A stretch of DNA of 64,000 nucleotides, from positions 17,065 through 81,064 of the forward strand of contig MU832240.1 in assembly GCA_029204225.1 (NCBI GenBank), read 5' to 3'. Below the pieces are notes generated by a model. The model searched no databases and was not told the origin of the DNA. It was given only the letters and a program-made list of their open reading frames with translations. The position numbers and the translations under genes are program-made. This DNA is from Diphasiastrum complanatum (Eukaryota; Streptophyta; Lycopodiopsida; Lycopodiales; Lycopodiaceae). The first letter of the stretch is position 1. Every line of letters starts with the position of its first letter. Below are positions 4,474-38,462 of this stretch, one piece after another.

Positions 4474-4977
4474 CTAATCGTTAACTAGATCCTTTCGCAG
4501 GAGCAACGCACTTGTTGTTTTAGAGGTGTGTTTGTTTGCCCCGTAGAACATGTCATCGTGATCAAATGCTTCACTAGCTAGTCTGTCTGCTTCATGATTG
4601 TATTCCCTTCTGATATGTAGAATATCAATTTCAACAAATAGCTTCATTAGGCTTTGAATCTCCCTAATGTACATGGCCAGGACATGAATTTTCACATCCC
4701 ACACGCCAATAACCAAGTTGTTTATAAGTGCAGAATCTCCTATAGCCGTCAAATGAGTCACTTTTTTATGAAAGGCCATTTTCATTCCTGCTAATAACGC
4801 TTTGGCTTCTGCCATGTTACCGGTGAACCTTTTACCTAAATAGGCTCCTAGTTTGGCAATAAGGACTCCATGTTCAGATTTCAAGGTCACTCCAATGGTG
4901 GCAACAAGTCGGCTACTGCCATCAAACCATAAATTCGCTTTCACTGTCGATTTCATGGTCGTATTTGTCATGGTCAT
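4474..4977 (-). CDS. Second (archaeal-type) RNase H of a Tat-like Ty3 element
   Basis: This 167-codon frame is a complete additional RNase H domain, which would degrade RNA in RNA-DNA hybrids during reverse transcription. The expected acidic residues are all visible: Asp in WFDGSS, Glu in NMAEAKALLAG, Asp in IGDSALINN and the C-terminal NHEADRLASEAFD. It starts at ATG 4977-4975, overlapping the integrase stop (TGA 4976-4974) as ATGA, so it sits in a different frame, downstream of integrase. Second RNases H are known in the plant Tat lineage, commonly between RT/RNase H and integrase; the position after integrase is the notable point. The frame itself is undamaged. Confidence 0.85.
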   Translation of the reverse strand: MTMTNTTMKSTVKANLWFDGSSRLVATIGVTLKSEHGVLIAKLGAYLGKRFTGNMAEAKALLAGMKMAFHKKVTHLTAIGDSALINNLVIGVWDVKIHVLAMYIREIQSLMKLFVEIDILHIRREYNHEADRLASEAFDHDDMFYGANKHTSKTTSALLLRKDLVND

Positions 4978-5588
4978 ACATAATAGGGTTTTACCTTACT
5001 GATATTGGCGGGGGTATATATATCTCTACCATGCATGTCGCTAAGAATCACAGTATTATTCTTAGAAACTTTCTTGAGAACATATGGACCTAACCAAATA
5101 GACATTAATTTTCCAAGGAATAATTCCCTTCTAGCATCATAAAACAGGAACAATTGTCCTTTTCGAAACTGATACTTCTTAGCTTTGAGATCGTGGAGCT
5201 CCTTCAACCTTTTCTTTTTTCGTTCTATTTGCAACAAGGCTCTAGACCTCTTCTCATCCAGTTTGTTTAATACCAATATCCGTTCACTAATAGCAGACTC
5301 ATATGGTAAATCATGTTCTTTGGAGAATCTCAGTGTCTCCAATTCGATCTCAATGGGCAATACACTCTCTACACCATAGACCAAGAAAAATGGGGTTTGG
5401 CCAGTGCTCGTTTTATAGGCTAAGTTATAAGCCCATACTGCAGCTGGAACTTTAGAATCCCAATCTCTTTTTCCATCAGAGATCGTCTTCTTAATGATGT
5501 CTACCAATTTCTTGTTTGTACTTTCCACCTGCCCATTGGCAATGATATAGTTTTGCTGCCCAATCAAAGAGGGTTTCACAGGTCCCAC
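4974..5588 (-). pseudogene. Ty3 integrase, C-terminal two thirds
   Basis: The frame carries the integrase region around the last catalytic residue (NGQVESTNKKLVDII, Glu present), the TGQTPFFLVYG segment, and the C-terminal GPY/F module (IWLGPYVLKKV), ending KPYYV. The sequence holding the two catalytic Asp residues is missing: between here and the zinc-binding segment at about 5743 only about 150 bp remain, with stops. Integrase is therefore internally deleted. It is followed by the ATGA overlap with the second RNase H. Confidence 0.85.
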
Positions 5589-5742
5589 ATAGTCAATGCC
5601 CCATTTTTAAAGGGCAACTGAGCAGTCAGGGTTATTAAGGGTCTTATTCTTTTATCGGGCACTCATACCCTTTGACAAATATCACATTTTATGTAATAAT
5701 TATGGCAATATCTAAATAGTGTGAAACACCAGTATCCTGCCC

Positions 5743-6396
5743 TTAGGACCTTCTGTGTTGTGGCATCACCGGCAAAGTGACCCCACACGCAGAGTCGTGG
5801 CATTCTTCAAGGATAAATGAGACTTCATTGGGTAGTACACACCTTTGGTAGAAGCCTTCAATGTCTTTCCTATACAACCTACTATTTATAACTTTGAATC
5901 TCAAAGCCTTCTTTTTCTCGGCTTTTGACAGACCTTTAGGCAATTCTAAGGTGGTCAGGTAATGGGCAACAAATACATCAATGTGAGGTTGAGAATTCTT
6001 CAAGTCATCTACTTTCTTCTCTTGACTTTCTATCTCAAGGTGATCTTCCTCTACTAGGCTATAATCACATAGACAATCCACCAAATTTTTGGCTTTGGGC
6101 GGTTTGTTTCTCAACTCATAATCGAATTCTTCTAGAACAACAAGCCACTTGACAAGTCTATCTGGCAGGTGAAGTTTGTTCAACATGAGTTTAATAGCAG
6201 TGGTAGGAGCATAAATGACTACTTTTCGATGGATAAGATAGTGTCTGAACTTAGACACAACAAAATGTACCGCTAGGCACACTCTTTCTCCATAACTGTA
6301 TCTAGTTTTGACACTCTTCAACTTGACACCAGCAAAGGCTATGGGGTGTAACACTTTTGGTTCCTCAATCTGGAACCAGGCACAATTTAGGGCCAA
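5743..6396 (-). pseudogene. Ty3 RNase H, connection and integrase zinc-binding region
   Basis: The first half matches the retroviral-type RNase H of Tat-like elements (TRYSYGERVCLAVHFVVSKF, RHYLIHRKVVIYAPT, LVKWLVVLEEFDYE). The usual acidic residues are partly lost: the segment that normally ends in an Asp-containing motif reads KNLVDCLCDY. The C-terminal part (YQRCVLPNEVSFILEECHD) resembles the HHCC zinc finger that opens integrase. The frame overlaps the end of the RT frame by 10 bp in another phase, so a frameshift separates them. Confidence 0.8.
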
Positions 6397-7742
6397 AGGT
6401 CCAGCAGCAACAATAAGATAAAATTCTTTGTCCCATTTGGGCAGTCTGAGAAGGCATCCTTCAGATGGTCAAACACATACTGACACTCCTCAGTCCACAA
6501 AAAGGGTTTATCTTTTGCAAGGAGCTCTACTAAAGACAAAGTGATCTTGCTATAATCTTTTAAGAATCTCCTATAATACCCTACACTCCCTAAAAAGGAT
6601 CTGACACCTTTTACATTAATGAGGGCAGACATCTCTCTAACACCCTGGACTTTAGCTGGATCGGTAGTTATCTCGTCCTTGCTTATAACATGTCCAAGGA
6701 GAATACCATATGGAACCACAAAAAGGCATTTTCTAGGATTTAGTGCTACAGACTTTTCTCTGCACACTTCAAAGCATTCCTTGAGTACTCTAATGTGATC
6801 TTCAATATTGTTGGTTGCTATACAGATGTCATCCATAAACACCTTAATGTGCTCAGATACCAGGTTTTCAAAGGATTTATTCATAAACCTCTGGTACGTG
6901 CCCGGGGCATTATAAAGTCCAAACTGCATGACATGATAAGCATATGTGCCAAATGGAGTATTAAAAGTCATCTTAAGCTTATCTTCAGGAGCTATGGCTA
7001 TTTGGTTATAGCCCGCAAAACAGTCCATAAAAGTATACATCTGCTCTCCAACTAATTGATCAAACATTTGGTCGATGAAGGGTAAAGGGTAGTAGTCCTT
7101 TACAGTACTCCTGTTAAGGGGTTTAAAGTCCACACAAACTCTGATTTGCCCATTCTTCTTAACTTTGGATACAATTGCCGAGTACCATTCAATGTTGGTG
7201 ACAGGGAATATAAGGCCAGCACCCCTCATTTTCCGGATTTCCTCAGCTACAGGTGCCATGAGATGTTGAGCTAACCTCCTTTGTCGTTCCCTGACAGGCT
7301 TTACATCAGGTTTTAATGGGATTTGATGGACTGCTAGAGCTAGTGGTATACCTTTAAAGTCATCATAATTCCAAGCAAATACACCCTTTGCACCTACCAA
7401 GAAGTTTGATATTAGTTTTTTGGGCTCCTTATCTAGGTGAGCATCGACTAACAACACTTTATCCTCATTATGAGCGTCACATATGATCTTATCTGCATCG
7501 GCATCTCTAACACATACTAGAGGTTCATGACCCTCGTATTGTTCAATTAGTAGCAACGTTGCTTCCTTGGAAGTAGACTCTTCAGAATCATTGGACACAG
7601 AATCTTCACCCTTCCAATACGTATCAGGGATCTCCGCCCTTTCGCTCTCAGGCAAATTCGGATATGCATTCACAACCACTCTTTTCTTCCCACGGCCAAA
7701 AATCAAATGACCACTGGGAATATCAACCAAACAATTGGCCAC
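6387..7742 (-). pseudogene. Ty3 reverse transcriptase
   Basis: This 451-codon frame is the reverse transcriptase that copies element RNA into DNA. Motifs appear in order: RVCVDFKPLNRST, YYPLPFIDQMFDQL, FMDCFAGYNQIAI, KMTFNTPFGTYAYHVMQFGL, and the active site VFMDDICIAT (F-M-D-D, both Asp present). The thumb/connection follows (GVRSFLGSVGYYRRFLKDYSKIT, FLWTEECQ). The frame itself is open, but both edges are frameshifted relative to protease (overlap 7703-7742) and RNase H. It is the best preserved part of this element. Confidence 0.93.
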
Positions 7743-8074
7743 GGTCGACCTAATAGCATAGCATATGCTTCCCTACCGGCCTGCATACGCACAACGTAAA
7801 AGTCTACTTTGGCAACTTTCCCAGCCACACTCACAAACAACCCACTTAGTATACCTTCAGCTTTCAACCTCGAGGTGTCAGCTAGCTTCAGGGTCAAGTT
7901 CCCACCATCCACTAAATCCAAATTCAATCTCTCACACAAGTTAGCATTCATAACATTTATTGCAGCTCCAGCATCGACTATAACATCAACAATCAACAGC
8001 TCGTCAGCAATAGCATCGACTTTCGGACAGCTATTTTCTAATCCATTGCTTGATACTTGATCTACTTCAACCAC
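7703..8074 (-). pseudogene. Ty3 aspartic protease
   Basis: A retropepsin-like domain that would cleave the Gag-Pol polyprotein. The active-site region reads VIVDAGAAINVM, with Ala where D-[ST]-G normally has Ser/Thr. The flap and C-terminal region (LLGRPW) are recognisable. The frame then shifts by one into the RT frame within the 40-bp overlap. The DAG change suggests loss of activity or a lineage variant. Confidence 0.75.
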
Positions 8075-12322: not shown

Positions 12323-15300
12323 GCGTGTTGGGTGAACTTCTAGGGATGCGATGAGAGGCAACAGAGTACTAATTTTTAATACTACATACCTTGTTTGCCT
12401 TTCAATTATACAACTGATCGCTTGTGGAAGGCGAGCCTGTGAATTTTTGCCATTCCTAAGTATCTAAAAGCCATGACAATCTGCATGATATTTACTTCTT
12501 AAAGCAAAGGTATTTGATCACTGTCTCTGATCTCTTCTGCACAACATTGTCTATTACATCAACGATGGCATCATGAAGTACACTTGGACACTCATAATTG
12601 GATGAAAATGCTACACGGCCTGGTATCTGATCAACTACTCATGAGCAGGCCACGAATTAACCTAGATGCTCCAAATTTTCTTGTAGAAGCTATTTACCTA
12701 TATAGGAAAACACATTCTTTTTGGTCAAAAATATTTTGTATAAAAAAACACTCATTCTTGGAATATTTCCTATATGTTGTGGGTATTCCGTGTAAATAAA
12801 TAAATTAGTCGAAAATAGTTGCGAGGGTCATGGCTTTGTCCATAGCCCAATGAGCACTTGTAGATAATCTATTTTGGAATAAACTTGACTTTGGACCATC
12901 TAATTAAAATAATACGAAGAGGCCAAAGTTTAAGCTTAACTTAAGTTTTTAAGTTTTGTAAAATGGTTAAAAGTCAAATGGTGGTAGGTGGGTGGGCTTC
13001 TTTTGAAGGGTGTGGATTTCAATCCTACCTTCTTGCAAGTAGCCAATAGGAAGCAAGGGTCAAGGGCCACCCCAAAGATAAAAAGGCACCTCTTATACTC
13101 ATTTTCACATGCCAATAGAGAGGAGGAGACTCTATTATTTTTTAGAGCCAAAGCATCCTCATGTGCTAATCACTCTTGCTAATGCTCTTATTGTGTTTGC
13201 TATTTGCTTTCTTTCCCATTTTTTTTGTTTTAATTAGTTATGGCTTTTCCCTTAGCATGCACATTGAGCACATGACCTTACCTCCATCTCATCTCTCTTT
13301 CTCTCTCTCCTTTCATCTACAATCTTGATGTATATTTGTTATTAGTGTTAGTGGAAGTAGTGTTAAATTGGGGTAGATTTAGAGATTAGTGTAGACTAGC
13401 AACTAAGCATAGTTAGGAACCTATCTTTGTGTTTTAACCCTTTTGATAGGTGGAGGGTGCTCACCATCAAATCTACACACCCTACACTATATAGGAAGAG
13501 TTTTCCTATATTGTCAATGTAGAAACTGTTTAATTTTTTCTAGTGTGCGCAGTTCCTCGTTATGTGTATTTCATTCTAAGAAAATACATGGAAAACTCTC
13601 ATTTTATCCTATCTAGAATTGTGGAGCTTGCATCGAGCTCGGATCCAATGGATACAAACTTCCGTCAATCCACAAATTGCAAACATCAGCTGACAGACCA
13701 AAAAGAAAATATACACTATTCTTCATCCATGGCGTACCTGAGATTCTATGTTTATTCTCTCGCTAGTTAAAACGAGGGATACAATCTCATTTTCAAATTT
13801 GAAAAAGTTAGTTAATGAGTGTCATAGGTTCTTGAAGTCGCAGTTGCATGCATCATAATCGTGTCATGTTAACTACACATTACTAGTAAGATTAAGCTAA
13901 ACTGGACCTGAAAGTCTGTCGGAGTTTTAAAATCCGGCGTTTTTTTTTGTCCTACGTGGCATTTCTTAGACGGCCCTTTTGATGTTTGTAACTCCTCTAA
14001 TGCCTAGCTCCAACTATGTTATTTGGTAGTAAAGTGCAATAAAGAAAATAATATTCAAGACTTTAAGAGTAAATCAAATTATTATGAATCTAATGAAAAA
14101 CTTATAAGGAAGTTGTTCCTCACTCGACCATGCAACATGCTAACTGAGTTCAATTTTTGTAGCTAGTGTGTTATTCTGGAAGAGATTAACCACATCCAAG
14201 CCTCCGTGAACAGGAAAAAAAAAAATCTCAGGGTTTTTGTACTATAGTCTACAATCCATCAATTCTAGATCACATGTTCATGAACTAGCTCATAGAACTA
14301 GGAGATTATATAAATGTTGGATTGATGATTATCAACAATTAGGAACTTGAGCAATTGCGTTGTAGAAATAAATTCCCCGACTAATAGTGAAATGTAGTGT
14401 CAACCTTAATTAATGAAACTAGATATAAAAGTCAATAAAATGTAAACTTAACTAAAATGATTATTTGTGGCTTTTCAAAACAAGTTGAAAAAATTTTGAG
14501 CATGTTATTTGGTAATTTTGAGTTAATTTTATATAGAAGTAAAATAAGGTACAACAAGAAATTGTAGCTAGTGCCACTAGGTATTTACAAACTATATTGT
14601 CTCCTTATAATGGCCAAATTTTCTCTTTCAAAGAACTAAATACCTTTCCAATGATAACTCTGTAGTAGCTCTTATCATCACGAAGGTGCAGGTTGTGTGA
14701 GAAAAAGCATTTAATAATGTTTTTTGACCAATCAGAATCTACTACACACTAAGAGTGCATGATATGTATTCATAGATAAAGATTTTGGAGATGATGGATC
14801 TGATGAGCAATGGAAAATGCCATCTAGATGCTCAATCTCAAAAAATTTCTTTGCTTTGGAGGATGTTGTACTTTGGACACAAAATGTGAGAGACATCAAA
14901 CTCGTGAGAGTTTACTTTAGCCTTTGAAATTTGAACCTTGGCTAGCTTTTGCATTTCAGCCACCACCTTTTTTTAATGATCATTTTTGATTGAGCATTTT
15001 TCTACCTACAATGTTTCATAGGGAGCTTGCCCCATGCTCATATGTATGACAACCTCTTTCACCATCTTGTCACATTCACATTCATTCTTGATCCTCATGC
15101 TATCTTCTAAATCACGTTTTTTTAGACTGGATTGCAAGGCCATTATTGCCAGTTTGACTATGTAGAATACCTTCTCACATTTTACTACATCAATCAATAT
15201 TAGGCTCAATTCTTTTAGACGTATCTTGCACAATGAATTAACAATGAATTGTTGCCTTGCCAAGCACTAGAGGCTTTTAGTCAAATCTGATTGTAGTGAA

Positions 15301-15720: not shown

Positions 15721-16065
15721 TTGACCTGGCTCATGGCCACGAGCAAGGAACTTTTGACCATTTTAATAAAGTTTTTGTGTGACGGAGAAAACAATTTACT
15801 GGGTTATTGTGAAAGATTGACGACTTATGGTGTTGCAAACTCGGTTCAGAAAATACAAAGTTTAGAATGTATGTTAAATGGTTTGCTTGCTGACGTATTA
15901 TTACAAACAAAAGAAGATAATGCATGTTTACATAATATTATGTTAAATTTGAATGCAAGTAATGATCAATTCCGACAAGTTGTTCAGACATTACGTATAT
16001 CAAATGACCAGTTAAAAGAAGAAACTCGCATACTAGATAAGAGATTTAAGAAACAAGCGAAATAG
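15721..16065 (+). CDS. Hypothetical coiled-coil protein exon
   Basis: A 114-codon frame with a predicted helical second half (QKIQSLECMLNGLLADVLLQ, LRISNDQLKEETRILDKRF) ending KKQAK then stop. I do not recognise the family. Codon-like composition and the heptad pattern suggest genuine past coding. It starts about 30 bp after the last palindrome. The next + strand coding-like segment begins at 16316, so the two could be exons of one gene. No promoter is evident. It may be the start of the unknown gene group that runs to 22008. Confidence 0.4.
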   Translation: MTWLMATSKELLTILIKFLCDGENNLLGYCERLTTYGVANSVQKIQSLECMLNGLLADVLLQTKEDNACLHNIMLNLNASNDQFRQVVQTLRISNDQLKEETRILDKRFKKQAK

Positions 16066-16315
16066 AATTCTGAAGGACATTGATGAGCTTTCGCTAAATG
16101 GAGGCCAACGGAGCAAAAGAATTCAAGCATTCAAGCATTGGATTTGAATCAGTTTTATTTTAGTTTTGTGAAGTAGCATGACATTTATTATGTATCCTAT
16201 TTGGGTTTCTTGATTTTCATAATCATTTGCAATTGCAAATGAGCATCTGAAGAACAATGACCTGATTGGAAAATCACTGAGTTCGGTACTGACAACCAAA
16301 TCCACAAAGTCTTTA

Positions 16316-16558
16316 TTGGACAATAATCAATATTCTCGAATCAAGTCCAAGGTCACTAAGGCTTTGATGAACGAGGTCGGTAAGGTAATCGACCGCACGT
16401 TAGTTCAGGGAGCATGTGATTTCTCAAGTATTAGCAGGGAGGCATATGCCAGTATATTTAAAATTACTAAAGAGGCTTTTGGACAATTGCATGTAAGAAA
16501 ATTTTCCATTCCTCATCCTTTTCAGATAAGATTGGAGAGAGATGTATTGAATAAGGGT
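16316..16558 (+). CDS. Hypothetical exon, convergent with the 16599-17835 gene
   Basis: The first 80 or so codons (SRIKSKVTKALMNEV, FSSISREAYASIFKITKEAF, SIPHPFQIRLERDVLN) look like real protein but match no family I know. At 16558 the sequence continues as GGTATGC, a possible splice donor. The frame beyond about 16600 is antisense to the last exon of the - strand gene and is likely not coding. Boundaries are uncertain. Confidence 0.35.
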
Positions 16559-16598
16559 ATGCAAAACGTCATTGGAATCCCTTTCACATCAATGAGAT

Positions 16599-17835
16599 TT
16601 ACAACTCAAAGTCTGGCAATTTGTCATATAATTCAGCAACATCTCTTTTGACAAAAATGATTCTATATGTATTTTTTGGATATTTATGCCCTTGGGCAAA
16701 ATAAGACAGGGCCTTGATGGCCATGAAGGTTCCCGCATTTACAAAAAACCTTTCATGAAGAATACAAATTTCTTTATTTACAAAATGTTTCAAATAATGA
16801 GCCAATGAGGCATCCTTTTGTCTCTCACCTTGTCTCTCTCTCAATCCTCCATGCCTGCTAGCAAAGGCATCAACTTCAACAACACATAAATCAAGTGTTA
16901 GTCAAACTAGCAGATCAATCATCAGTTACACTTTAAATAGTAAATGATTTTTGTGAGAAGGTGTACTTACCAAATCCTCCTCGTCAGCTTGGATCACACC
17001 AGCAGTTTCTAAATTGTGACCAGCAATAATGGTGGATTGCTGGTCAGCTGGAATAGTATATATGGGAGGTGACGGATATTTTTTCTGAAAAGCCAAAAAC
17101 TCCTCCTCAAATTCAGAAATCATCCTTGACATAAGAGATAATATCTCATGTTCTCTGAGATCCATCGGCGTCTCCGATGTCGCTAATGGACAAGAATGCA
17201 ATATCGTCCATATGGTACACAGGGAGGTCCATCAGGGTTCTGCTCTGGTCAATCTCGCTCACGGTAGATAAGGAAGAGATAGACAGAGAATGAGCCTTGG
17301 CAAGATCATATAGCTGTGTTTGCCTGGCCTCCTCTACATCTCCTAAAACCTCATCAGTAATGGAAACCTTTGAAGCCACACGAGTGGTAGGGGAGGGCAA
17401 ACCAATCATGGACAACCCAGAAGATTTTGCCTCATCAGCGATAAGAGCAGAAAAGAAAAACATGAAGGCCATACCCTTCTGAACGAAATGACTTACTTAA
17501 TTGTGTTCCTCACAAGGTATGACACGTTTAAACAGATCAATAAGTTTGACAAACTTACGATCATGCCTTTGCTTGGCACTAGGCTGAGCATGAGTCAAAT
17601 CTGTGAAATGCACAAATCTCAGGCCGTCCATCAGAAGGGTACCCTGTTGCAAGCACTCATAAACATCCTTGTACAGTTTGGGAAAAACTTCCTTGTGCTC
17701 AATAACAAATCTCTCTATGTCAAACTGAAAATCAAAATAGGACAAAAAATGGGTCTGTCTATCGCTAACTGCAGCATCAACAAGGAAAGAACTAAGAGCT
17801 CTATCATAGATCAAACTACTAGAAGAGGAGGCCAT
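16599..17835 (-). pseudogene. Unknown spliced gene, divergent from the H3-Ulp1 gene
   Basis: The start ATG 17835 opens MASSSSSLIYDRALSSFLVD. The same phase continues past a single in-frame TAA (17499-17497) to about 17146. A second frame (17201-16926) carries MISEFEEEFLAFQKKYP and reaches a strong donor, GATTTG/GTAAGT, after 16971. The likely last exon begins after an AG near 16855 and encodes HYLKHFVNKEICILHERFF, ending PDFEL at 16599. No domain is recognised. It shares an 835-bp intergenic region with the H3-Ulp1 frame, so the pair may be co-expressed parts of one mobile unit (inference). One stop and one frame change indicate decay. Confidence 0.45.
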
Positions 17836-18065
17836 ATCGATATGAGGCGCTGATTAGCAAAGGTAAAATCAACAGTGTAATCCTGGGTGCGTGACGGCGA
17901 TATACACTTTACATGATGTCAAATATCGGAACTACGTGGCAGGGGAGCAGCGCGACTATGGAACGATCTGTTGGGTGTGTGGTAGCGATATTGTATGTAC
18001 TGATTTAGCAGCAGGTCAGTTTTCTAGACTCAATATGTGAAACTGAATTCCGAAAACAACACCCA

Positions 18066-18420
18066 TATATATAGTCTAATTCAGAGCATCTGAACCGTAC
18101 ACGTGTTTCGGAAACGTGCCGTCAAAATTTCCATACGTGTGGAAACGACGACCCAATCATTGGCATGACACGCGTACACTTCAGATCCTGACACGTGTGC
18201 TCGCACGTGTATGCCAACTGTACGATCGTATGAAGCAGTCGTCCCGTGATGCATGTGTGGCCCAGATCATGACACGTGTCCTCGCACGTGCATGCCAGTC
18301 GTATGATCGTTCGAATTGCTAATGTCCTGACAAATGATAGGTCCGTGTGATGACACGTGCAAGGAGTAGAGGTGTCACATCACACGTGTGAGTATGATGG
18401 GACGTTCTACAGGTATAAAA
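18066..18420. promoter_or_regulatory. G-box-rich divergent promoter region
   Basis: Seven CACGTG palindromes (G-box/ABRE core) lie at about 18099, 18192, 18204, 18272, 18284, 18353 and 18383, with further ACGTG cores. Two of the pairs lie in an 81-bp direct repeat (GACACGTGT, spacer, CGCACGTG at 18190 and 18271). TATAAAA at 18414-18420 points right, about 250 bp before the H3-like ATG. On the other strand CTATATATATGGG near 18065-18077 points left toward ATG 17835. In plants such cores bind bZIP and bHLH factors; that these do is inference. Confidence 0.6.
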
Positions 18421-18670
18421 GGACGTTTTTGGCTCATATTTCAGTTTCGAATTTCTTCATTCCCTAGCTCTCCTCAACTTTTTTCGTTCAGTTCCGCTCC
18501 TCGCTATACGCATATCACTACCACGCGCCTAGAGACTCACATATCAGTATAGCTTCCCCCTCTGCGCCTTGTGGCAATACGCCAGCTGCGATATCGCCAT
18601 CATGCGCCTCCCTTATCGGATATGCACTTTTCTATCTCATTGGCGCATCATATCGATATCTTAGCTTGAA

Positions 18671-19102
18671 ATGGCCCGTACCAAGCAGACAACATGCCTT
18701 ACCACATTTCCTCGCCCTCCTGTACAAAGGGCAGTGGGCATTGGTAGGAGAGTAGGTTGGCCCAGAAGACCATGGTTAAAGGATATCAGGAGACTTCAGA
18801 GGACAATGAATCTTTTGATTTCTCGTGCTCCGTTCTACAGGTCTGTGAGATTAGTGACAAGGTCACTCTCACATGATGTTCGCTAGAACATAATAGCCCT
18901 GGAAGTCCTCCATATTGCCTATGAGGACTTTCAAGTCAAATTCTTTGAGGACTCCACGCTTTGCACAGTGCACACTAAGAGAGTTACCCTCATGCCTCAG
19001 GACATGCATCTTGTCATGAGGCTGAGGAGTACATATGATCAAGTCTTTAAGAGTGGCTTCACCTCTAGGCCACCACCTACAGAGAGAGGGCCTGTTTCTC
19101 AA
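18671..19102 (+). pseudogene. Histone H3-like domain, N-terminal part of an H3-Ulp1 fusion
   Basis: ATG 18671 opens with MARTKQT, identical to the start of histone H3, then a divergent tail without the usual ARKS site. From about residue 36 the H3 fold aligns to canonical H3 without gaps: LKDIRRLQRTMNLLISRAPF for alpha-N/alpha-1, then SVRLVTRSLSHDVR, then, after TAG 18884-18886, IIALEVLHIAYEDF, FFEDSTLCTVHTKRVTLMPQ and DMHLVMRL. The TAG falls where H3 has Phe and many CENH3 proteins have Trp (TGG to TAG would explain it). NLLI..APF.R.VR also recalls CENH3. The same frame runs on to TGA 19103-19105 and beyond. H3 genes encode about 136 residues and stop; here the protein was evidently longer. 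This is a decayed copy; origin from CENH3 rather than H3 is a guess. Confidence 0.8.
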
Positions 19103-20469
19103 TGAAGAAGGAGAAAGCAGACCAAGCCCACCAGGCCTGCCAGACAAAGGGTGGTACTCAGCGAATCACCATTCCCTCCTCACATCTCTCGTCCTTTGGT
19201 TGGACCATCACACCAGTCTACAGTGCATTCTTCTCCTCCCACCACTCGTAACTATTCAAGTAGTTCCTCTTCCATTCCCTCCATTCCATCCCACAATAAC
19301 GAGGATATGACCTCTACTGTAGATAAAATAATATCGGATCTAGATATAAGTTTAATAGGTGATTTTTATAATGATATTTGTGTAAGATTTCCTGTTGATC
19401 CGAAACATTCATTTTTGGATTCTGAGAGGTATATAGTTTTTAATGAGTATGTTGCGCTAGTAGGTCAATTTTCTTTTTGTGTAAGTCAATTAATTATGTA
19501 AATCACATAAATAAAGACTTTTGTGATGCCTTGAAGGATAAGACCTCAGATATATCAGATCTAGTTGTGGAGGCTGGTTTGATGTATTTTGTAAATAGAT
19601 GTAAATGCGATGATACTAAGGACATTAAAGTTGTGCTGTCCTTTTTTGCACACAACCTTCATAGTCCAACTCGGACGACAAAATATCTTCTCCATACAAC
19701 CTCGGAGACCAAAGTCTTTATTATTCCATACTGCCAAAAGTAAGTGATCACATAGAATAAATTCAAGTAATATTTTTATTAGGTATTGTAATTCCTTCAG
19801 TTTAACTAATTATCTCTTGTTTGCAATAAGCATTGGAGTATGCATATAATCTCCCTTAGGGAAGATTCAGATGAGATCATTAATCCCATCTGTTTAATGA
19901 ATTCCTTGAGCTCTACCCATGCCGAAATGGACGTGATGTACAACAGAATGTTGCCATTTTTACCAAGGCCGGATGGGGCCACTGTAATAGCCACCTGGAG
20001 ATTGTTGATGCAGAAATAAATATTTCTCATCAAGTATCTGATAGGTAATATGATGTATTTTTTTGAGAGTGCACAACTAACGTATTATACGTTTTGTGAT
20101 TGAAGTCAGCTCAGCAAGATGATGGACATAGCTGTGGATGGTTCTCCATCCGCAATATACAGGATTTCTTAGAGTGGTACATCATGCAATCCGGGGCTCT
20201 AGATATACGAAAGGTAAATAGACTACTGAATGGCCTAACTAAATTATTTTCGATTTGGTTCCTGATCAATCAATTGACTCGGTTATTTTGGATTTGCAGT
20301 ATAAATGTCGAGTATTTACAATGAATGAGATATATGAGTTTCGTCAACAAATGTTGGTGAACTTATTATCTCATGCAACACCCAGTCCAGCTGTGGATAT
20401 GAGAGGGCAATCAAGTCCACAACTAACACTAGTACAGGGTGGAGATAATCCATATTACTTTGAGTTGTA
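19103..20469 (+). pseudogene. Ulp1-type (C48) cysteine protease part of the fusion
   Basis: Past TGA 19103 the same frame encodes a basic stretch (RRRKQTKPTRPARQR), a Ser-rich linker and DFYNDICVRFPVDPKHSFLD. Later exons carry the SUMO-protease core: a segment ending FIIPYCQK, then HWSMHIISL (catalytic His), LMNSL where the catalytic Asp is normal (Asn here), a frame change near 19980, and SAQQDDGHSCGWF (Gln and Cys). A donor AAG/GTAAAT at 20213 joins TTTGCAG/ at 20299 in phase; the last exon ends at TAA by 20469. The two earlier junctions are one base out of phase with GT-AG splicing. Ulp1 domains are frequent in plant MULE- and CACTA-type elements; fusion to an H3 fold is not something I know. 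Confidence 0.8.
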
Positions 20470-20818
20470 AATAATAGATTAAATAGAGATATAGATTTTT
20501 GATGTAATGCCTTGTGAATAATTATGGGCATATAGAAAGATAGAGACCATGGGGTAAAAGCATCCATTGTAAAATACAGGACGCACATGTACATTCTCAA
20601 AAAATGAGAAATATATTGATATTTATGAGAGTTTTTACAAATCTTGTATCATGATTGCTCTATTATTTGAACAATTCCCCCCAAATTTTTGCATTTGATT
20701 TTCTCTTCATGTCTTTTACGTATCTGCACAAACATACATTAATCAAATTACAATTAGTGATCCGAATATTGACAAAAAGGATAATGAATACAAATTAATA
20801 TACAAATTCATAAATTTG
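20470..20818. other. Convergent intergenic region, no gene
   Basis: AT-rich sequence between two converging genes. No repeat or RNA gene seen. Confidence 0.5.
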
Positions 20819-22008
20819 TCATACCAATTTTCCATCCAATATAAAACTGAAATATTCGGGGATATCTTGTTGTAAAAGTGTCAGTTCCGTTCTAATGTAG
20901 AATAAGGTCCAGTCGTGCTCAACCTCAATAGTAGTAAGTAAATCCCCATTTGCCATGATATCAATGCATATACGATCAGTGTGTCCAATGCTGTCTAGAT
21001 CTTGATCTAATGGGGCCCAAGTACCATTGTGTTCTTTCCATCTCTGATAATGAAACACCATACTTAGCATTTGCTTTTCTATACTGTATCTAAATGATAT
21101 GGATGAATGTTTGATTCTACAAGCAATATCTGCAGTGGATCTTATATCCCAACCTTTGTCCATGAATTTGAATTAAAAATCATCTGATAGATTTTTGCAA
21201 ACAAACAATGTGGGAGTTTGATGCACCTCTGTGTTTGAAAAAGAGCTGACAAACAATGACATTGGAAAAAACCAGCTTAAGTGCACATTTCTTGATCGAG
21301 TACTAGTTTTGAGTGACTTTTGTACATCATTATATAGCTTGGAACAAAAACATTATATTGTCGTTGACTGCAATCCACCACACGTTATCTTGAAAATTAG
21401 GTAGAGGTATACACTCTAGTTTTTCCATTCCTCCATTTGTGTCTGGAATATACATAGCATTGTAAAAAACTATTCCAGAATCTGCAAGTTCTTTTGTCGT
21501 TCGTCCTCTGTATTGCAATTTGCCAATTTCTGAATGGATGACATCTATAATACCTGAAAGAGACGCCACAAGTTCCCATTCATGTAATTTTGAAGGATAT
21601 AGATCTGCAATATAAAATCATAATAAGCTCCGATTCATAAATACGATTACGTTTTAAAAATGACAAGCAATCCAAAAAATTAAGATACTTACAATTACAC
21701 TTTCAAAAATCATGTGGATTTATAGCCTCCACATTAAGTTCTGAATGCATATAAACATGTTGAATAAGCACCTCTGAAATGGTTTGTCCTCCTGGAGAAA
21801 CTTTGAAATCAATAATCCGCCCTTTCCAATAAGATCTATATGTATACTTGGCCTTTTTCTTTTGGTGAAAAGCCCCTCTCGTCGATGGATGCATCAGTAC
21901 CCAAGAAGCCTCATGATATTCACGAGCAATCCATGTGCCATCATCTTCTTTCTCATTATAAAAAATTGTAGAGCATATCAAGGATCTCGGTCTCCTTCTC
22001 ATCGCCAT
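20819..22008 (-). CDS. Unknown spliced gene with BAH-like and ubiquitin-like hints
   Basis: Three coding-like blocks on the - strand: 22008-21703 (MAMRRRPRSLICSTIFYNEK, DDGTWIAREYHEASWVLMHP, WKGRIIDFKVSPGG), about 21605-21330 after a TTGCAG acceptor (HEWELVASLSGIIDVIHSEI), and 21163-20819 (ending DWTLFYIRTELTLL, YFSFILDGKLV). GRIIDF.. followed by ELVAS...I...I is reminiscent of a BAH chromatin-reader domain, and the last block looks like a ubiquitin-type beta-grasp fold. Both are weak by-eye resemblances. GTAAGT donors follow the first block near 21692. It converges on the H3-Ulp1 gene. In-frame stops at block edges make exon limits uncertain. Confidence 0.35.
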
Positions 22009-22356
22009 AGCCTGAAGAGTTCGTGTTTGAACTCGTCAATATGAGAGTCCAGAGTATAATAGGCACCAAACCTATTTGTGAGTCCCAAGATAATTTTAAC
22101 TTGAGGTTAACCCAAGCAGTTTAGTCAACCAGTTGTCGCGCATGCCAACCAATAGTATGCTTCCAATCTACTGGACCGAAAATTCAAATTTGCCCACACA
22201 TGAATTGTGTTTTCCGGGTCAGGCGAGTTATGTTACATAGAAGCCACTATGTCAAGAACCGATTGGGCCACGGACATAAACAACAAGGAAAAAAAAAAAC
22301 TCATAACAAACGGCTCTTCTAAGTTTGAGAACTCCTATAATGTAAATGACAGGATG
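22009..22356. other. Upstream region, no gene
   Basis: Lies between the start of the - strand unknown gene and the CACTA terminus. No recognised element. Confidence 0.4.
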
Positions 22357-22925: not shown

Positions 22926-23830
22926 TCATATAGCTTCGTTATTAGTAAGTTGATCTTCAAAAGCTAATGGCGACGATGACAACGAGTGAGATCGAGAAGG
23001 TGTGTCGTGTGTCATCGATCCATCCGATGATGATACATCACGTTCAACACCATCATTAGCTTGTGAAGCTTGCATATGATCGTCCTCTGAAAATGTGTCA
23101 TCGATTCCATCAACATGGTCTTGTTCATGAGGTGCATCAGTTGGCACCGTCATGTCCTCCACAACATCTCTATCTTCAAAAATTCTTTTACTTTGAGAAG
23201 CGACTTGAATCACATACCACCATCTAGGATCTGAATGATCGGGGTGAAAGACCACCTATAATTGATCGATGTTACTATAAACATTGACTAATAATTAGTA
23301 TCCATAGCTATGTTACAGTTGCTTGGATATACACATATTATACATTTTTTGCAGTATACTGAAAATCGACTGATTGACAACAAAAGAGCATAGACATCTT
23401 GAAGACATTGAAGAAATGTACCTGGTCACATTGTTAAGGAAAAACAAATGTATCGCTTTGATCCGTCCAAAGCTTGGTAGAGTCAATGGCAAAATAACTA
23501 CTCTCATCTTTCATGACAGTTGCATTGGGACCATTGCAAATAACTTTGAACCATTTGACATCAAATATAAAAAAGCTGAATTGCCTAAATCCAACTTCGA
23601 GGATGTCATTGATTGTCCCACAATAAGCAAGTTGAGAAGAGAGTAAATTGGTGTCTGCCATACTTGCTCGACTCTCTTGGGTAAAATTTGCCATGACTCC
23701 ACAATCGTATGTGTTTTTATTTTTGTCAATGTGCTCTGTACAAAAGAGTCGTCCATGTGTCCAGAGTGCATTGTATTTTTTGTACTAAACAAAATAGAAA
23801 AAAATGTGTTAGGAACAACAAACATGTATA
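22926..23830 (-). pseudogene. CACTA transposase region, DUF4216-like
   Basis: On the - strand the sequence encodes YDCGVMANFTQESRASMADT, LAYCGTINDILEVGF, FFIFDVKWFKV, then FHPDHSDPRWWYVIQVASQS and KRIFEDRDVVEDM, followed by an acidic Ser-rich tail (EDDHMQASQANDGV). This order is that of the DUF4216 region near the C-terminus of plant En/Spm transposase-related proteins. Stops after TFVFP near 23434 and around 23260-23400 interrupt it. It lies between the CACTA left terminus at 22357 and the TNP2-like part at 24050-25030, in the same orientation. Confidence 0.75.
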
Positions 23831-23915
23831 AAATTTCACATACAAATGATTTAATTAACATGTGAATGATGATCATCATAGCTTACATGTAACTCACACC
23901 CCCTTGCAAATCACT

Positions 23916-24021
<106 letters not shown>

Positions 24022-24049
24022 TTCTTGGTTATTTGCCGAGGCTTCTCTA

Positions 24050-25030
24050 AGGGCATCACGTAGCTAATTAAGCATCATGTCCTTGCGTAGAAGGGCAAGG
24101 TTAGGTGGATATGGTTGTCTTCTATGACCTCCCTTGAAAGTGGCTCGTCTATGAGCCTTGGCCTCTTCATATAGAGAAATCCACTTTTGCATTTCTTCAC
24201 TATTAAGAATGCAAAACTTATTTACCTTCTCCTTAAAAACTTTCTCAACACCAAGGGAAGCACAAACTGCATGAGCAAAAACAATCTGGCCATTGAGATA
24301 CAGATATGCGCAATGAGATCATCATGAAATTACAAGACATGCTATAAAATGTAATCCAGAATGCTGAGGTGGAAGCAACATAAAAAAACATGCCATGCCA
24401 ACTTGTAAAAAATTATGCAAGTCATGAGACTTTCGTCCACTTAGCTTGTTGTCCCTTGTGAAGGCACCCTGCACTTTAGGCATCACATGTTTCCTGTCAG
24501 AGTTTGAAATGAGGCTATTGCCTTCTTTACAATCGTCTCTTCTCTCCGCGAGAAGATCCATTGAGCCTTTGGGAGGACAATTGAATTCCCTACCATTTGT
24601 GGGCATAAATTGGCCATCTTTTCCACTTCTTTTAAGTCATCTCGTGCATCTTTTTTATCTTTGGCACTGGTTAAGTGTTCCCAGATTGTGCTCCCCACAT
24701 TCTTGAATATGTGCATGCAAGAGGGAGTCGCCTAGACCTTGATTGGATCTCCAAATTTGAAGCCAATCACTTGCTTACAACATAAAGAAACAAGCACACA
24801 CATTTAATTGAGAAAATTATCGCTAGAACATATTTAAAGAGAGGCACTATTAAAAAAATAAATGACATTGAATATTGGCCCAAATATTATGTGTTGTACC
24901 TTCATGGTGTGGGAACGTTGACCAACAAGCCCCTCACGCATAGGGTGATTGGGTGGAAGGTATCGAGTGTGGCCCTCATAAACCATCTTTCATAGATATT
25001 GTGAGTGGCGTGCTTGCAAATTCTAGCCAC
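24050..25030 (-). pseudogene. CACTA TNP2-type transposase
   Basis: Recognisable from the 5' side: GHTRYLPPNHPMREGLVGQR (about 24975-24905), the MHIFKNVGSTIWEHL motif with KDARDDLKEVEKM (24716-24620), LSGRKSHDLHNFLQV (about 24450-24410), then CASLGVEKVFKEKVNKFCIL and AKAHRRATFKGGHRR (24270-24130). This is the order in plant TNP2/En-Spm transposases, where MHI-KN and GxKSHD segments are conserved. Frame changes at about 24480-24600 and several stops make it non-functional. Introns may explain some gaps (24730-24900). Confidence 0.85.
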
Positions 25031-25130
25031 AAATGGGACATGCATTGTAGCCACTGAGTGAGAGCCCTTCATTGAAAAAAAAAAACTGACTTAATTATTG
25101 TGAGTGCAACGTTTGGAGCGAGAGAAAATT

Positions 25131-27370: not shown

Positions 27371-27960
27371 TCAAAACATCGTAGAAATGTCATCACTTAA
27401 ATCTAATACCATCACCTGGCTATACACCAGGCTATCTAACATTGCCTCAAAGGCAGATGCACTAATAGTGCTGCTATTCCTATAAACATATCTTATATCA
27501 CTAAGTAGCAAATCTACATCTAAGAGCAAATGAAATCTCTGAGGAGATGTGGCAATGATGCTCTCTTCACTAATCAAATAACAAATATATAGCTCCAACA
27601 ACCACATGAATGTGCTGCACAAGATATGCTCTCCATCACCAAGCAGCTCCCTAAACTCCACGGAAAATCGATGATGATCCACCATCAAGTTCACCATCTG
27701 CACAAACACACAGGTGGCCAACTGTTATTAGATGAGACAAATCATAATATCAAGATTGAACATTGTCAAAAATGATTTATGTAGGACCGAAACATGTATC
27801 ACGCTACATTTATAAACCCTAATCTATGCAATGTATTTGGTCAAAATAACAAACGACTCACCAACATTACTGACATAAAAAACTGACATGCTTGTTGACT
27901 GGATTCAATGTTTGAGAGTTTGTCATCAACTAAGATGCACCTATAGTACGGACAAACCTT
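27371..27960 (-). CDS. Unknown spliced gene, paralogue 1
   Basis: Two exons on the - strand. Exon a (about 27960-27865) encodes STRKVCPYYRCILVDDKLSN and SQQACQFFMSVML up to donor TTG/GTGAGT. Exon b (after AG at about 27722) encodes ATCVFVQMVNLMVDHHRF, LLDVDLLLSDIRYVYRN and LDSLVYSQVMVLDLSDD, ending at 27371. A diverged copy at 33275-33760 has the same exon structure and about half its residues identical over the last 51 positions. I do not recognise the family. Conservation of the splice site and protein, rather than DNA, suggests past function. Confidence 0.55.
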
Positions 27961-28813: not shown

Positions 28814-29084
28814 CTGCAGACAAAGAAAGGGATCAACAACAGTAACTAATAATCACCAACGCTTCTCAAGGTTGTAATGACTCTTGCAAAACCATTTATG
28901 TTCTAATTGGAATACCAATGGGGCATAGCTCATTCAAGCAAACACCTTAAAAAAGTATCTAAAAATAGTATAGTAGGCACAACTAGAGATATAATCCGCT
29001 TTGTAGATTCACAGCCACTTTGCAGGTATGTTACTTAGGCATTTGATATATTTTCTTGAACATATCATAGCATCTGATATTTTC

Positions 29085-29938
29085 TTAACGTATAATTTCT
29101 TTTACCTTCATTTGCGGATGCCCGTCATGTAAAGAAGATATTCAAGTCGGAAGAACAATGAAAATAGTGTGCTCACACACATTAGTAGACTCTATTTAAT
29201 TATTTGATTGGATTTAAATTTTTTGTAAGTAAGTGTTACAAATGCTTTTATCAATAAAAGTATTAAAATAATGACCTCAATTCAAAAAGTCATAATTGCA
29301 ATATTTTTTTGCTCTTTGAGCTGATTCCAACAAGTATATGCATGACAATATTTGATTTCAGTTTGACTGATATTTTTAAAGATCCTATTCAGTCAGATGA
29401 AGTTTTACACCTTTTACGGTATTTTTTGACTTTCTTTCAAGTTAAATATCTTCTAAGTATGAGCTCTGATTCGAGTGATATAGAAAACAATATTGCTCTA
29501 TTTTTTGAGTTCTTTGCATTGACTATATGGATGATTACCTTAAAGTATTTTCATAATGTGATCCATAATCAGGCTAACCAAACTTTATGTGATTGTACAA
29601 ATTCTGAAAATTGACTTTGGATCCTCAAATCATTAATCTGTCTCTCACTCTCTTAATACAAGTTCAAAGCCTACTTAATTTCATTTTTGTGAATATCATG
29701 TCTGAAAACCCCTACCAACAAGTAGTTACTTCGAAGTTTGTATGAAACAATGTTTCATATAGAAAGCACATCCGCCTGAAACCACTAGTACAAGTCAAAC
29801 AAGACTATTTTTAACGTAAAATTTGAGCCATAATCTTTCTTTATGCTCAAAAGTGATAAATAACAATTTAAAATATAGTAGGATGCCTGCTTAAAATAGA
29901 GTGTCATGTTTACTATCTTTTATAGGTATCCATGGCCA

Positions 29939-30020
<82 letters not shown>

Positions 30021-30431
30021 TCTTTGGGGCCGCTATTGTTTGGTTGATTCTGACGAAATCCATGTTAAGTTTGACTTGCAGGATAAATGAACAAAGGTTG
30101 TGAATAGCATGTCAACCAACAAATAGTTACTCCGGAGTTTGTACGAAACAATGTTTCATACAAAACTCCGGTTTCTGAAAGCACATCATCCAGAAAGAAG
30201 AGATTGGCCCGTAGGAGACAAGCCAAGAGTAGGGCTTTGCCAACATGTAGTATAGGCACTGCAGGTGTGTCCCGACGTAGCGATGGTACATTGACTTTAG
30301 ATGCCAATGTACAATCACTTAGCAATCGTGCAATAGAGCACATCAGGAGTAGCAAAACCAGTTTGGTTGTAGGCGTGCCTCCGCATAGCTATCATCCATT
30401 GAGATTACATCATGTCATGGTACCATCACCT
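29085..30431 (+). repeat. Left arm of large inverted repeat: Helitron 5' region, copy 2
   Basis: Homologous in inverted orientation to 37984-39300 at high identity by eye, including the CT microsatellite in the same place. It contains a frame at 29345-29614 (TIFDFSLTDIFKDPIQSDEV, YLLSMSSDSSDIENNIALFF) that matches 39035-38829. It also carries the start of the Helitron protein at 30204 (MARRRQAKSRALPTCSIGTA), which is cut off at about 30431. The arm is thus the promoter and N-terminal end of a second, truncated Helitron copy. Confidence 0.85.
29941..30017. repeat. (TC)n microsatellite, 77 bp
   Basis: Lies in the left inverted-repeat arm, at the position equivalent to 38394-38458. Confidence 0.95.
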
Positions 30432-33274: not shown

Positions 33275-33760
33275 TTAAGAAATAGACATCATGTCATCTG
33301 ATAAGTCAGAAACCAATACCTGGGCATACACCAGGTTATCTAACATTGGCTCAAAGTCACTAAGTCTAACAACACTAACATGTCTCCAAACATATGCCAC
33401 ATTCCTGAGTAACATATCTACATCTAATAGGAATCGATATTCTCTTGGCATAAAACATCTTCTCCTTTGTTGTTGGAATAAGAACTCTGCATAAGCTTCT
33501 ATCAACCACAAAATGGAGCTGCAAGACACCTCATCACCAAAACAAAATAACTCTGTCAGGTTTTGCACAAAAGTCCCGTGGTTTATGTAGGTCTTCGACA
33601 TCTGCAACAACACCAAGAATATGAGCAATGTATTTGGTCAAAATAACAAACGACTCACCAATTTTACTGACATAAGAAGCTACCCTGCTTGTTGACTGGA
33701 TTCAATGTCCAAATATAATCTCCGACAATAATCCTAAAATCTACAAACTAACCTAACCTT
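33275..33760 (-). CDS. Unknown spliced gene, paralogue 2
   Basis: Exon b (33600-33275, after AG) encodes MSKTYINHGTFVQNLTELF, FLLDVDMLLRNVAYVWRH and MLDNLVYAQVLVSDLSDD. The upstream exon a (about 33735-33660) encodes YLDIESSQQAGSFLMSVK and ends at G/GTGAGT. It parallels 27371-27960 in protein, splice position and intron sequence (ATGTATTTGGTCAAAATAAC is shared). The frame of exon b is open. It lies between the GA tract and the telomere-like tract, in the same orientation as the Helitron helicase. Confidence 0.55.
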
Positions 33761-34112
33761 CACTCTTATTCTACGATACTTAACCTAACCCTTGCCGAAA
33801 ACCATGTTTTTGTGGGTAGCAGCAATTTGTGTATCCTAATTCTAATCCTAAATCCTAATGTAACCCTGACGCTGCTCTATCTATTACATAATACCACTCT
33901 AACCCTAACCCTAATGTAACTCTAAGACTAACCCTTACCCTAATCCTAATGTAACTCTAACCCTAATTCTAATCCTAACCCTAACATAACTCTAACCCTA
34001 ACCCTAACCCTAATATAACTCTAACTCTAACCATAACCTTGATCTAACTCTAACTTCACTCTAATCCTAACCCTAACTCTAATGTAGCCCTAATCCTAAC
34101 ACTAACCCTTAC
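33755..34112. repeat. Degenerate telomere-like tract
   Basis: About 350 bp dominated by CCCTAA, CTCTAA and CCTAAT words, with short exact runs such as CTAACCCTAACCCTAACCCT near 33994. The unit is mostly the 6-base CCCTAA/TTAGGG rather than the 7-base plant TTTAGGG, and it is heavily degenerated. It abuts the 3' end of the PIF1-type helicase gene. Confidence 0.75.
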
Positions 34113-35644
34113 TCCAAAACAAATAGTACAACACTTCGGAATACACAATATTTTGAGTGCACCTCGCCACTCCTACCACATCTGTAAATCGGCCGTCAGT
34201 ATCAGTAATCAACACTCGTACACTTCCTGCATTTCGCACTCTCAATAATGCGACATACAACTGACCATGACTAAATACGGGACGTGGCAAGTACAATCCA
34301 ATAGTCTCCATAGTCTGCCCCTGCGCCTTGTTTATTGTCATGGCGAAAGCTGCTCTAATAGGAGATTGTATTCGTTGTAATTCAAACGGCAAGTTTGAAG
34401 CGCTCGGCACTAAAGGGATCCGTGGAATGAGGACTCTACTCCCAATATTCCTGCCGGTAACTATCTTTGCATCTAAGACTTGTCTACCCAATCTACGAAT
34501 GATGAGTCTCGTACCATTGCACAATCCTTTGTGCGACACGATAGACCGCAACAACATCACTATCATGCCAACCTTCAACACCAATCTATGTGGAGGACAT
34601 CCACTCGGTTGCAAGCTATTCAAAAACTCTACTGGGTACACATCAGAGTCATCACGCTCAACCACGCTATCAGCACTATAAAATGTGCAAGCTTCTTAAA
34701 AAATCAACATCCATGTAACGTCGTGCAATATCGGGGAAAGTGAACGAAATCAATTCACACACATCTTGCGTCCTTAGACACATACACTCTGGCAAAGAAA
34801 TCAAATCCAAACCTCGCAGCACAAATGTGGGCTCACGACCATCTCCAATACTCAACAAATACTCTATGAACCTCGACTGCTCGTTCCTATCGGCTCCCTC
34901 CACACCCATAACACGCATGTTCATTGACAGTTTGTGCACTTCCATATATTTTCACAAACGCAAACACTTCAGTGAAGTGCTCACAATCTGTGCACGAATG
35001 TCCCGTCGTACCACCGGGAGTACCTAACAAAAATCACCACCAAAAACGATCGGAATCCCTCCAAATGGAGTATCAATACCCAATATGTCCCGTAAAGACG
35101 GATCCACACACTCAATGGCATACTTATGTACCATGGGAGCCTTGTACCAAATAATAAGTCGACATGCCATCAAAAGCTTACCTAACGGAGACCGTTTCGA
35201 GATGTTGCAGGTCGAGCTTTCATTCAATTCCGTCGGAGGAATCCTAAATCTAGAGTGTGCGGTCCTACCACCTTTCATTAACAGTGCAGCGATCCTCGAT
35301 GATGCAACTGCCAGTGCTATCCAACCTTGTGCATGCACGTACAATAGCATGACACCATAGAGAAACATCTTACCCGTAACACCCGGACCATCTACAAAGA
35401 ACACTCCACCCACTCTTCGTACCACATGCTCACGTACTACACGATCAAAAATCACACGTTGGTCTACATTCAATCTCTCGATGTCAGCCTCTACGTCTAG
35501 AAGGGTCTCATCGAGAAATATCTCCTTGCGAAATAGTGGAGAAAACTCGACATCGCTATTGGGAAGTGTGAAGCCAAAATTTGTCAATGACTTTCCCGAT
35601 GCCTGCATGTGCGTCTCCACGTCTAGAAGAGCCCTATCTACCAA
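34102..35644 (-). pseudogene. Helitron PIF1-type helicase domain
   Basis: The helicase half of the Helitron RepHel protein, which unwinds DNA during rolling-circle transposition. Visible in order: NVDQRVIFDRVV; Walker A as GPGVTGKMFLY (normally GPGGTGKTFLY, two changes but Lys kept); ASSRIAALLMKGGRTAHSRF; IVFGGDFC (usually FGGDFRQ); a break 35023-34946; LSMNMRV; then CNGTRLIIRRLG, IPRIPLVPS, RAAFAMTINKAQGQTMETIG and FSHGQLYVALLRV (usually ALSRV). A stop or shift at 34665-34676 and the gap near 35020 disrupt it. It ends at 34102 beside the telomere-like tract. Confidence 0.9.
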
Positions 35645-35647
35645 AAT

Positions 35648-38207: not shown

Positions 38208-38392
38208 TCTCTTCCTTCTGGCGGATGTGCTTTCAGAAACCGGAGTTCTATATGAAACATTGTTTCGTACAAACTCCGGAGGAACTACTTATTGGTTGGG
38301 GTTTTCAAACATGATATTCACAACCTTTGTTCATTTATCCTGCAAGTCAAAGTTAACATGGATTTCGTCAGAATCAAGCAAACAATAGCGAC

Positions 38393-38462
<70 letters not shown>

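Follow-up and report, generated by a model that had tools for sequence, protein, structure and literature searches.

Results

A degraded gene joins an H3-like fold to a Ulp1-like domain

The DNA analysed here, referred to as the window, is a stretch of 64,000 nt from Diphasiastrum complanatum (contig C722, positions 17065-81064), and positions below are those within the window. It contains a degraded gene at 18671-20470 that encodes an H3-like histone fold, a linker rich in Ser, Pro and Arg, and a multi-exon Ulp1-like domain (Table 1). The reading frame begins MARTKQT, is interrupted by a TAG in the H3-like part and a TGA directly after it, and is then open until 19498. Over 276 codons, dinucleotide shuffles had on average 14.4 stops, and just 1 of 5000 had as few as the two seen here. 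A preliminary description of this DNA had reported the MARTKQT start with an ungapped H3 core, the TAG and the later TGA in one frame, a basic, Ser-rich linker, and Ulp1 exons with HW and QQDDGHSCGW. Each was found, the best PDB match being gapless over residues 31-120 and the stop codon ending one base past the 20469 given earlier, and the observation was confirmed.

Table 1 Features in and around the H3-Ulp1 element of the window.
Feature	Positions	Strand	Basis or remark
Element left end, inverted in the window copy	13616-14002	-	Reverse match to C2 and C7 left ends; terminus CATTAG at 14002
Left gene remnant, possible transposase	15763-16650	+	89-90% identical to C2 and C7 copies
Gene A remnant, head to head with H3-Ulp1	16635-17835	-	Repeat unit comparison
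Intergenic region of divergent gene A and H3-Ulp1	17836-18670		TATAAA at 18414 ahead of H3-Ulp1
H3-like domain	18671-19102	+	Pfam Histone 9.4e-20, PDB H3 4.9e-19; TAG at 18884, TGA next at 19103
Ser/Pro/Arg-rich linker, same frame	19106-19300	+	In-frame state kept in relatives
Ulp1 half, first part (rest of exon 1)	19301-19739	+	Comparison with relatives
Intron 1	19740-19826	+	Donor GTAAGT; acceptor CAA in window copy
Exon with HW (catalytic His position)	19827-20015	+	Pfam on conceptual splice; relatives
Exon with QQDDGHSCGW (Gln and Cys positions)	20106-20213	+	Relatives
Last exon, stop TAA	20300-20470	+	Splice comparison
Gene C, convergent with H3-Ulp1	20819-22035	-	Inside repeat unit; no Pfam match
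Right terminal repeat	22310-22342	-	Same end in C2, C3, C13, C6 and C4 copies
CACTA transposase remains	22926-25100	-	Transposase_21 8.9e-8 and sub-threshold DUF4216; pieces with X at stops; just outside H3-Ulp1 element
LTR retrotransposon	4477-7772	-	Reverse transcriptase with separate RVT_3 (second RNase H type) domain
ORF pair, duplicated gene	27374-27724 and 33278-33637	-	About 40% protein identity; neither with a Pfam match
Inverted duplicate	29078-30431 and 37980-39300		1.37 kb, 89% identity
Degenerate CCCTAA telomere-like array	33899-34109		Ten CCCTAA units, zero CCCTAAA
PIF1-like helicase ORFs	34105-35647	-	4.9e-43, and 2B domain 8e-18
LTR retrotransposon	60800-63102	+	Copia-type gag-integrase ORF

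Translated with X at the stop, the H3 part matched the Pfam Histone family (PF00125) over residues 31-119 with 71.5 bits (cut-off 26.4), and the best PDB chains were H3 variants and H3, with weaker matches following. The Ulp1 part matched PF02902 at 5.9e-7 on a first conceptual splice of the window copy and at 2.9e-9 on a better one (37.5 bits, cut-off 20.7). The HW fragment alone against PF02902 (0.0024) and the Ulp1 part against PF07910 (C78; 0.0025) both stayed under their cut-offs, and searching PDB for the Ulp1 part yielded no match. Taken by itself the linker of the window is uninformative, with 1154 of 5000 shuffles equally open, and the claim of a single frame therefore rests on the relatives of this gene.

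The fusion recurs across the host genome

The genome of the host plant (1.745 Gb, 5176 contigs) was searched with the H3-like protein. A first look gave 6669 candidates; the 150 that were scored all matched, so that family size is bounded just from below. The best match after the window, on C4, is embedded in DNA 99.6% identical to the window over 21.6 kb; judged by this sequence, the C4 locus is an allelic or duplicated contig and no separate insertion. Thirty loci were fetched automatically (window included), and the H3 match was stop-free in 16 and carried stops in 14. Seven loci were then added, two chosen because they were divergent and five because their open frames were long. Of the 38 records with an H3 piece, 31 had one or more Ulp1 pieces downstream of it on the same strand; with the window (L004) and the C4 records (L005, L035) set aside, the count is 28 of 35 loci. 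The seven loci lacking a Ulp1 piece fall into two groups. In L009, L011 and L023 an internal deletion takes the sequence from about 19320-19335 directly to a more rightward part of the element; in L019, L024, L025 and L030 the resemblance to the window stops at 19175-19245. In one copy, on C22, the match to the window is confined to 17535-20661. The pairs L009/L011, L016/L017, L021/L022, L024/L025 and L010/L014 are probably among those that are allelic or duplicate, and independent insertions are therefore fewer than the loci counted.

The reading frame was followed at the 29 loci (window in, C4 out) where the H3 part is accompanied by both pieces of the Ulp1 half that belong to exon 1. It ran from H3 to the first Ulp1 piece at 22 loci and to both pieces at 18; a net shift between H3 and the Ulp1 half occurred at the other 11, including the window, where the frame change lies between 19464 and 19516 and is absent from the 18 one-frame loci. 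Seven of these 18 were stop-free over 361-364 codons of exon 1, L027 and L032 from the automatic set and L045-L049 from the set in which open frames had been one ground for selection. In the 18 one-frame copies, TGG stood in place of the window TAG 13 times and TAG itself 5 times; at the position of the window TGA, CGA was present at 24 of 36 loci, TGA at 8, CAA at 2 and AGA at 2. The intron 1 donor GTAAGT was present at 20 of 27 loci, with an AG acceptor at 16 and the CAA of the window at 7. A GTAAGT donor followed the HW exon in most of eight loci compared but was absent from the window and L049, and in four of five loci the last exon was preceded by GTAAAT...TTTGCAG.

An H3 pseudogene lying by chance beside a Ulp1 pseudogene would be compatible with the uninformative linker of the window and with a step in base composition near 19300. 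The recurrence of the pair in the other loci and the one-frame loci among the copies contradict such an arrangement, which was dropped as having practically no chance of being correct. The preliminary description had named the lack of any other locus with adjacent domains as evidence against its reading, and such loci were in the majority.

The gene lies in a repeat unit with inverted ends

The H3-Ulp1 gene sits in a repeat unit of 9.0-9.2 kb with inverted ends of about 33 bp (CATTA...) and three other genes. The common ends were found by comparing the flanks of the C2 and C7 copies with each other and with the window. The left repeat begins CATTAGAGGAGTTACAAACATC... and the right repeat, read inward, CATTACAAGAGTTCTCAAACTT..., with left and right ends identical in 25 of 34 columns in the C2 copy and 26 of 34 in the C3 copy. 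Seven places were fetched where ends were predicted and five were positive (C13 left, C3 both, C6 right and C4:76.27 Mb right); at the other two, where the left ends of the C6 and C4 copies were expected, no end was found. The element measures 9181 bp on C2, 9017 bp on C3 and, with a deletion, 6148 bp on C13, and no exact target-site duplication of at least 3 bp was seen by eye in these three copies, which have both ends. The preliminary description had inferred a mobile element or a lost host gene, and the first of these was right, since the fusion recurs within a dispersed repeat unit with terminal inverted repeats.

From left to right the element carries the left gene (+), gene A (-), H3-Ulp1 (+) and gene C (-). 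Pieces of the left gene, gene A and gene C gave no Pfam match of note, and the left gene also gave no PDB match; our guess is that it could encode the transposase. About 1.7 kb of the C2 copy is missing from the window near the downstream end of gene A. A structure prediction for the gene C piece reached a pLDDT of 52 and was not used as evidence. Between gene A and H3-Ulp1, seven CACGTG (G-box) motifs fall within 18100-18388, less than 300 bp, and may serve the element as promoter boxes or as binding sites. The leaders of these two genes are alike over 15 nt, a likeness equalled in 12 of 500 shuffles.

The TNP2 fragments on the minus strand at about 25100-22926 (PF02992, with the sub-threshold DUF4216 match) suggested that H3-Ulp1 might be accessory to a CACTA (En/Spm) element, and Ulp1 in CACTA elements is described in excerpts of PMC2528002. 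However, in the window as in other copies the repeat unit ends at 22342, short of these fragments; it starts CATTA and not CACTA, and a search for CACTA ends gave nothing convincing. The CACTA assignment was rejected because the element ends before the fragments in other copies, and we now consider it very improbable. Pfam scans of eight element pieces gave no match to a hAT transposase domain, and no 8-bp target duplication of the hAT type was present in the C2, C3 and C13 copies. The element has inverted ends, and by its ends alone it is set apart from the VANDAL non-TIR elements.

Other repeats are scattered through the window, including two LTR retrotransposons and a telomere-like array (Table 1). 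The PIF1-like helicase ORFs presumably belong to a Helitron, and the inverted duplicate lies partly in the neighbourhood of this helicase-bearing element.

The histone core is under purifying selection

Exon 1 translations of three stop-free copies matched Pfam Histone as encoded, at 2.2e-16, 4e-19 and 5.2e-21 (60.7, 69.5 and 75.6 bits; cut-off 26.4). Against a plant H3 reference, the window core is identical at 35 of 86 positions. Its substitution score is 176, compared with a mean of 136 and a maximum of 174 in 2000 neutral simulations stopped at equal identity, so that 0 of 2000 were as conservative. The single stop in the H3 part of the window is not unusual, since 24% of neutral simulations had one or none. 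The family majority core is identical to plant H3.1 at 39 of 84 positions and to Arabidopsis CENH3 at 43 of 85. In a tree of H3 and CENH3 the element H3 stood on a long branch with 7 of 10 inner branches open, and the longer loop 1 of CENH3 type is absent, there being a gap of two residues when loop 1 is aligned with that of Arabidopsis CENH3. A CENH3 origin is not claimed, as scores were alike for H3 and CENH3 and the tree gave no settled affinity. The element protein shares the histone fold and the ARTKQT start with histone H3 and CENH3 but differs from both by a short tail with K4 alone and by its C-terminal Ulp1 half. Within the tail (M = 0), T3, K4 and T11 are invariant in all 18 one-frame copies, ARTKQT is kept, and K4 is the sole consensus lysine before the core.

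Protein-database searches returned a single match, an H3-like protein, from a database that seems to hold hardly any plant proteins, and absence there therefore means little. This sole match of the H3-like part, P0001 (186 aa, from a 1321-base contig), has an extension ahead of MARTK and a longer loop 1. No relative turned up in viral contigs scanned with two queries, the latter half of the H3 part and a portion of the left gene. Structure prediction of the H3 part (pLDDT 48; best fold match a nucleosome entry at E 0.37, not significant) was not used as evidence.

Selection was assessed in the 18 one-frame copies (153 pairs) and in the subset of seven stop-free copies. In the 18 copies dN/dS was 0.23 for the H3 core, 1.02 for the tail, 0.52 for the linker and 0.64 for the exon 1 Ulp1 part; the stop-free copies gave 0.24, 0.93, 0.39 and 0.63, respectively. 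Bootstrap 95% intervals of pN/pS were 0.17-0.42 for the core, 0.61-2.59 for the tail, 0.36-0.86 for the linker and 0.47-0.95 for the Ulp1 part, and in both comparisons, core with tail and core with Ulp1 part, the core was the lower in all 2000 draws. The copies were ranked by H3 similarity, which lowers dN in the H3 part; the tail belonged to the same H3 query yet has a dN/dS of about 1. A raised dS in the core (0.22, compared with 0.11-0.14 in the other parts), for which no cause is evident, adds to the contrast. The H3 core is under purifying selection across the copies, and the Ulp1 part is less constrained. GC-to-AT transitions made up 335 of the 695 differences among copies (4.0% per GC site, 1.0% per AT site), an excess that fits long-standing methylation and is expected of methylated, silenced DNA.

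These values bear on whether a captured host H3 rides in the element as a functionless passenger, by the precedent of fungal hAT elements (PMC6710886, in excerpt). Many copies do carry stops in the H3 part, as counted above for the automatically fetched loci. A passenger, however, is at odds with a core so constrained beside a tail at 1.0 and with a divergence from H3 more conservative than any neutral simulation, and we regard it as decidedly unlikely.

The Ulp1-like half may be inactive or papain-like

HW and QQDDGHSCGW, which hold the His, Gln and Cys positions, are present in the window and largely kept across copies, with changes in single copies at His (L048), Gln (L013, L029) and Cys (L016, L017, L026). 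In an alignment by eye to a Ulp1 pattern, the Asp column reads Asn in 22 of the 23 relatives covering it and Asp in L026, and the protease may therefore be inactive. A Cys-His-Asn set can be active, as in papain. The protease-like domain of the element may thus be inactive or may be a papain-like (Cys-His-Asn) enzyme; the H3-Ulp1 protein may have been an active SUMO or ubiquitin-like protease.

If the protease is inactive, the protein could be a histone decoy that ties up H4, histone chaperones or readers of K4, or that poisons silent nucleosomes. The Asn column would suit such a decoy, as would the looser constraint on the Ulp1 part than on the H3 core and the retention of ARTKQT. Conservation of HW and of the Gln-Cys motif in most copies argues against it, as does the activity of papain with the same set of residues, and on balance a decoy appears quite unlikely.

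Discussion

We read the window locus as a defunct member of a plant DNA transposon family of high copy number, whose H3-Ulp1 fusion protein would act in chromatin against silencing, and give the reading as a whole an even chance. By this account H3-like targeting would be combined with Ulp1-like action on SUMO-like tags. That selection has kept the histone core suggests that the elements act on the chromatin silencing them, and since it is the fold-making part of H3 that was kept, the protein probably meets nucleosomes. The H3-like domain would pair with host H4, enter or dock on nucleosomes and thereby carry the Ulp1-like domain to chromatin. There the Ulp1-like domain would remove SUMO-like tags from silencing factors or, if inactive, bind them. 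The tail would keep its K4 stretch while lacking a K9, K27 or K36 that silencing methylation could use. Taken together, silencing would be countered locally, leaving the element transcribed and able to move. The nearest worked example for such a role is the Ulp1-carrying VANC (KIU) genes.

A bolder form, which we put forward tentatively and consider somewhat doubtful, is that these transposons code for an H3 variant of their own, in which K4 is the only tail lysine and to which a Ulp1-like protease is tethered, and that this variant would be built into nucleosomes on the family's own copies. Such self-marked nucleosomes could escape K9, K27 and K36 methylation and lose SUMO-dependent silencing.

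Selection on the histone core would equally suit a docking module that brings the transposition or integration machinery to nucleosomes, with the Ulp1-like domain processing or binding partners and no anti-silencing involved. A possible transposase gene neighbours H3-Ulp1 in the same element; the left gene, however, has no Pfam match and is at most a putative transposase, and nothing ties H3-Ulp1 to it. We think docking for transposition unlikely, and favour anti-silencing.

Plant transposons carry Ulp1 domains, and fungal transposons have captured H3. A fused family in which the histone core is selected and the rest drifts points to chromatin as the place of action. It makes it testable whether a transposon uses its own histone against silencing, and it supplies hundreds of naturally occurring versions of a rapidly evolving H3-like core.

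The published systems are compared here as far as excerpts of the papers describe them. In Dothideomycete fungi, H3 has been captured by hAT DNA transposons of about 9.5 kb with 20-bp ends and 8-bp target duplications (PMC6710886). Hundreds of copies occur in Pseudocercospora fijiensis, inactivated by RIP except for the original gene, and 26 in Pyrenophora tritici-repentis, 23 of them apparently coding. The fungal and plant elements are alike in high copy number, with hundreds of copies within a single genome, in similar length and in an intronless H3-like sequence. The fungal H3 is of host type, whereas here a divergent H3 is fused in frame to a Ulp1-like domain, its core is under purifying selection, the ends are different and the pieces scanned gave no hAT match; the words Ulp1 and fusion are absent from the main text of PMC6710886.

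That Ulp1 domains ride in plant transposons, as the preliminary description had stated, is published for Mutator-like (PMC13317346) and CACTA elements (PMC2528002), and the excerpt of PMC5735166 holds nothing on Ulp1. Ulp1-carrying VANC genes (Kaonashi, KIU) occur in VANDAL non-TIR Mutator-like elements, and the KIU group is reported to induce methylation loss of related elements (PMC13317346). Like H3-Ulp1, they are plant transposon genes that join a Ulp1 domain to a chromatin- or DNA-directed part; by description they are set apart by the non-TIR ends and by a Ulp1 partner that is VANC and not a histone. The CACTA elements of grapevine and rice (PMC2528002) likewise place a Ulp1 domain on a plant DNA transposon, but theirs have CACTA ends and TNP2, whereas the element described here has CATTA ends and no TNP2 inside. 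No H3-Ulp1 fusion appeared among the open-access papers listed by literature searches on histone or H3 with Ulp1 or transposons. Each half thus has transposon precedents, and it is the fusion of H3 and Ulp1 for which none appeared among the papers listed.
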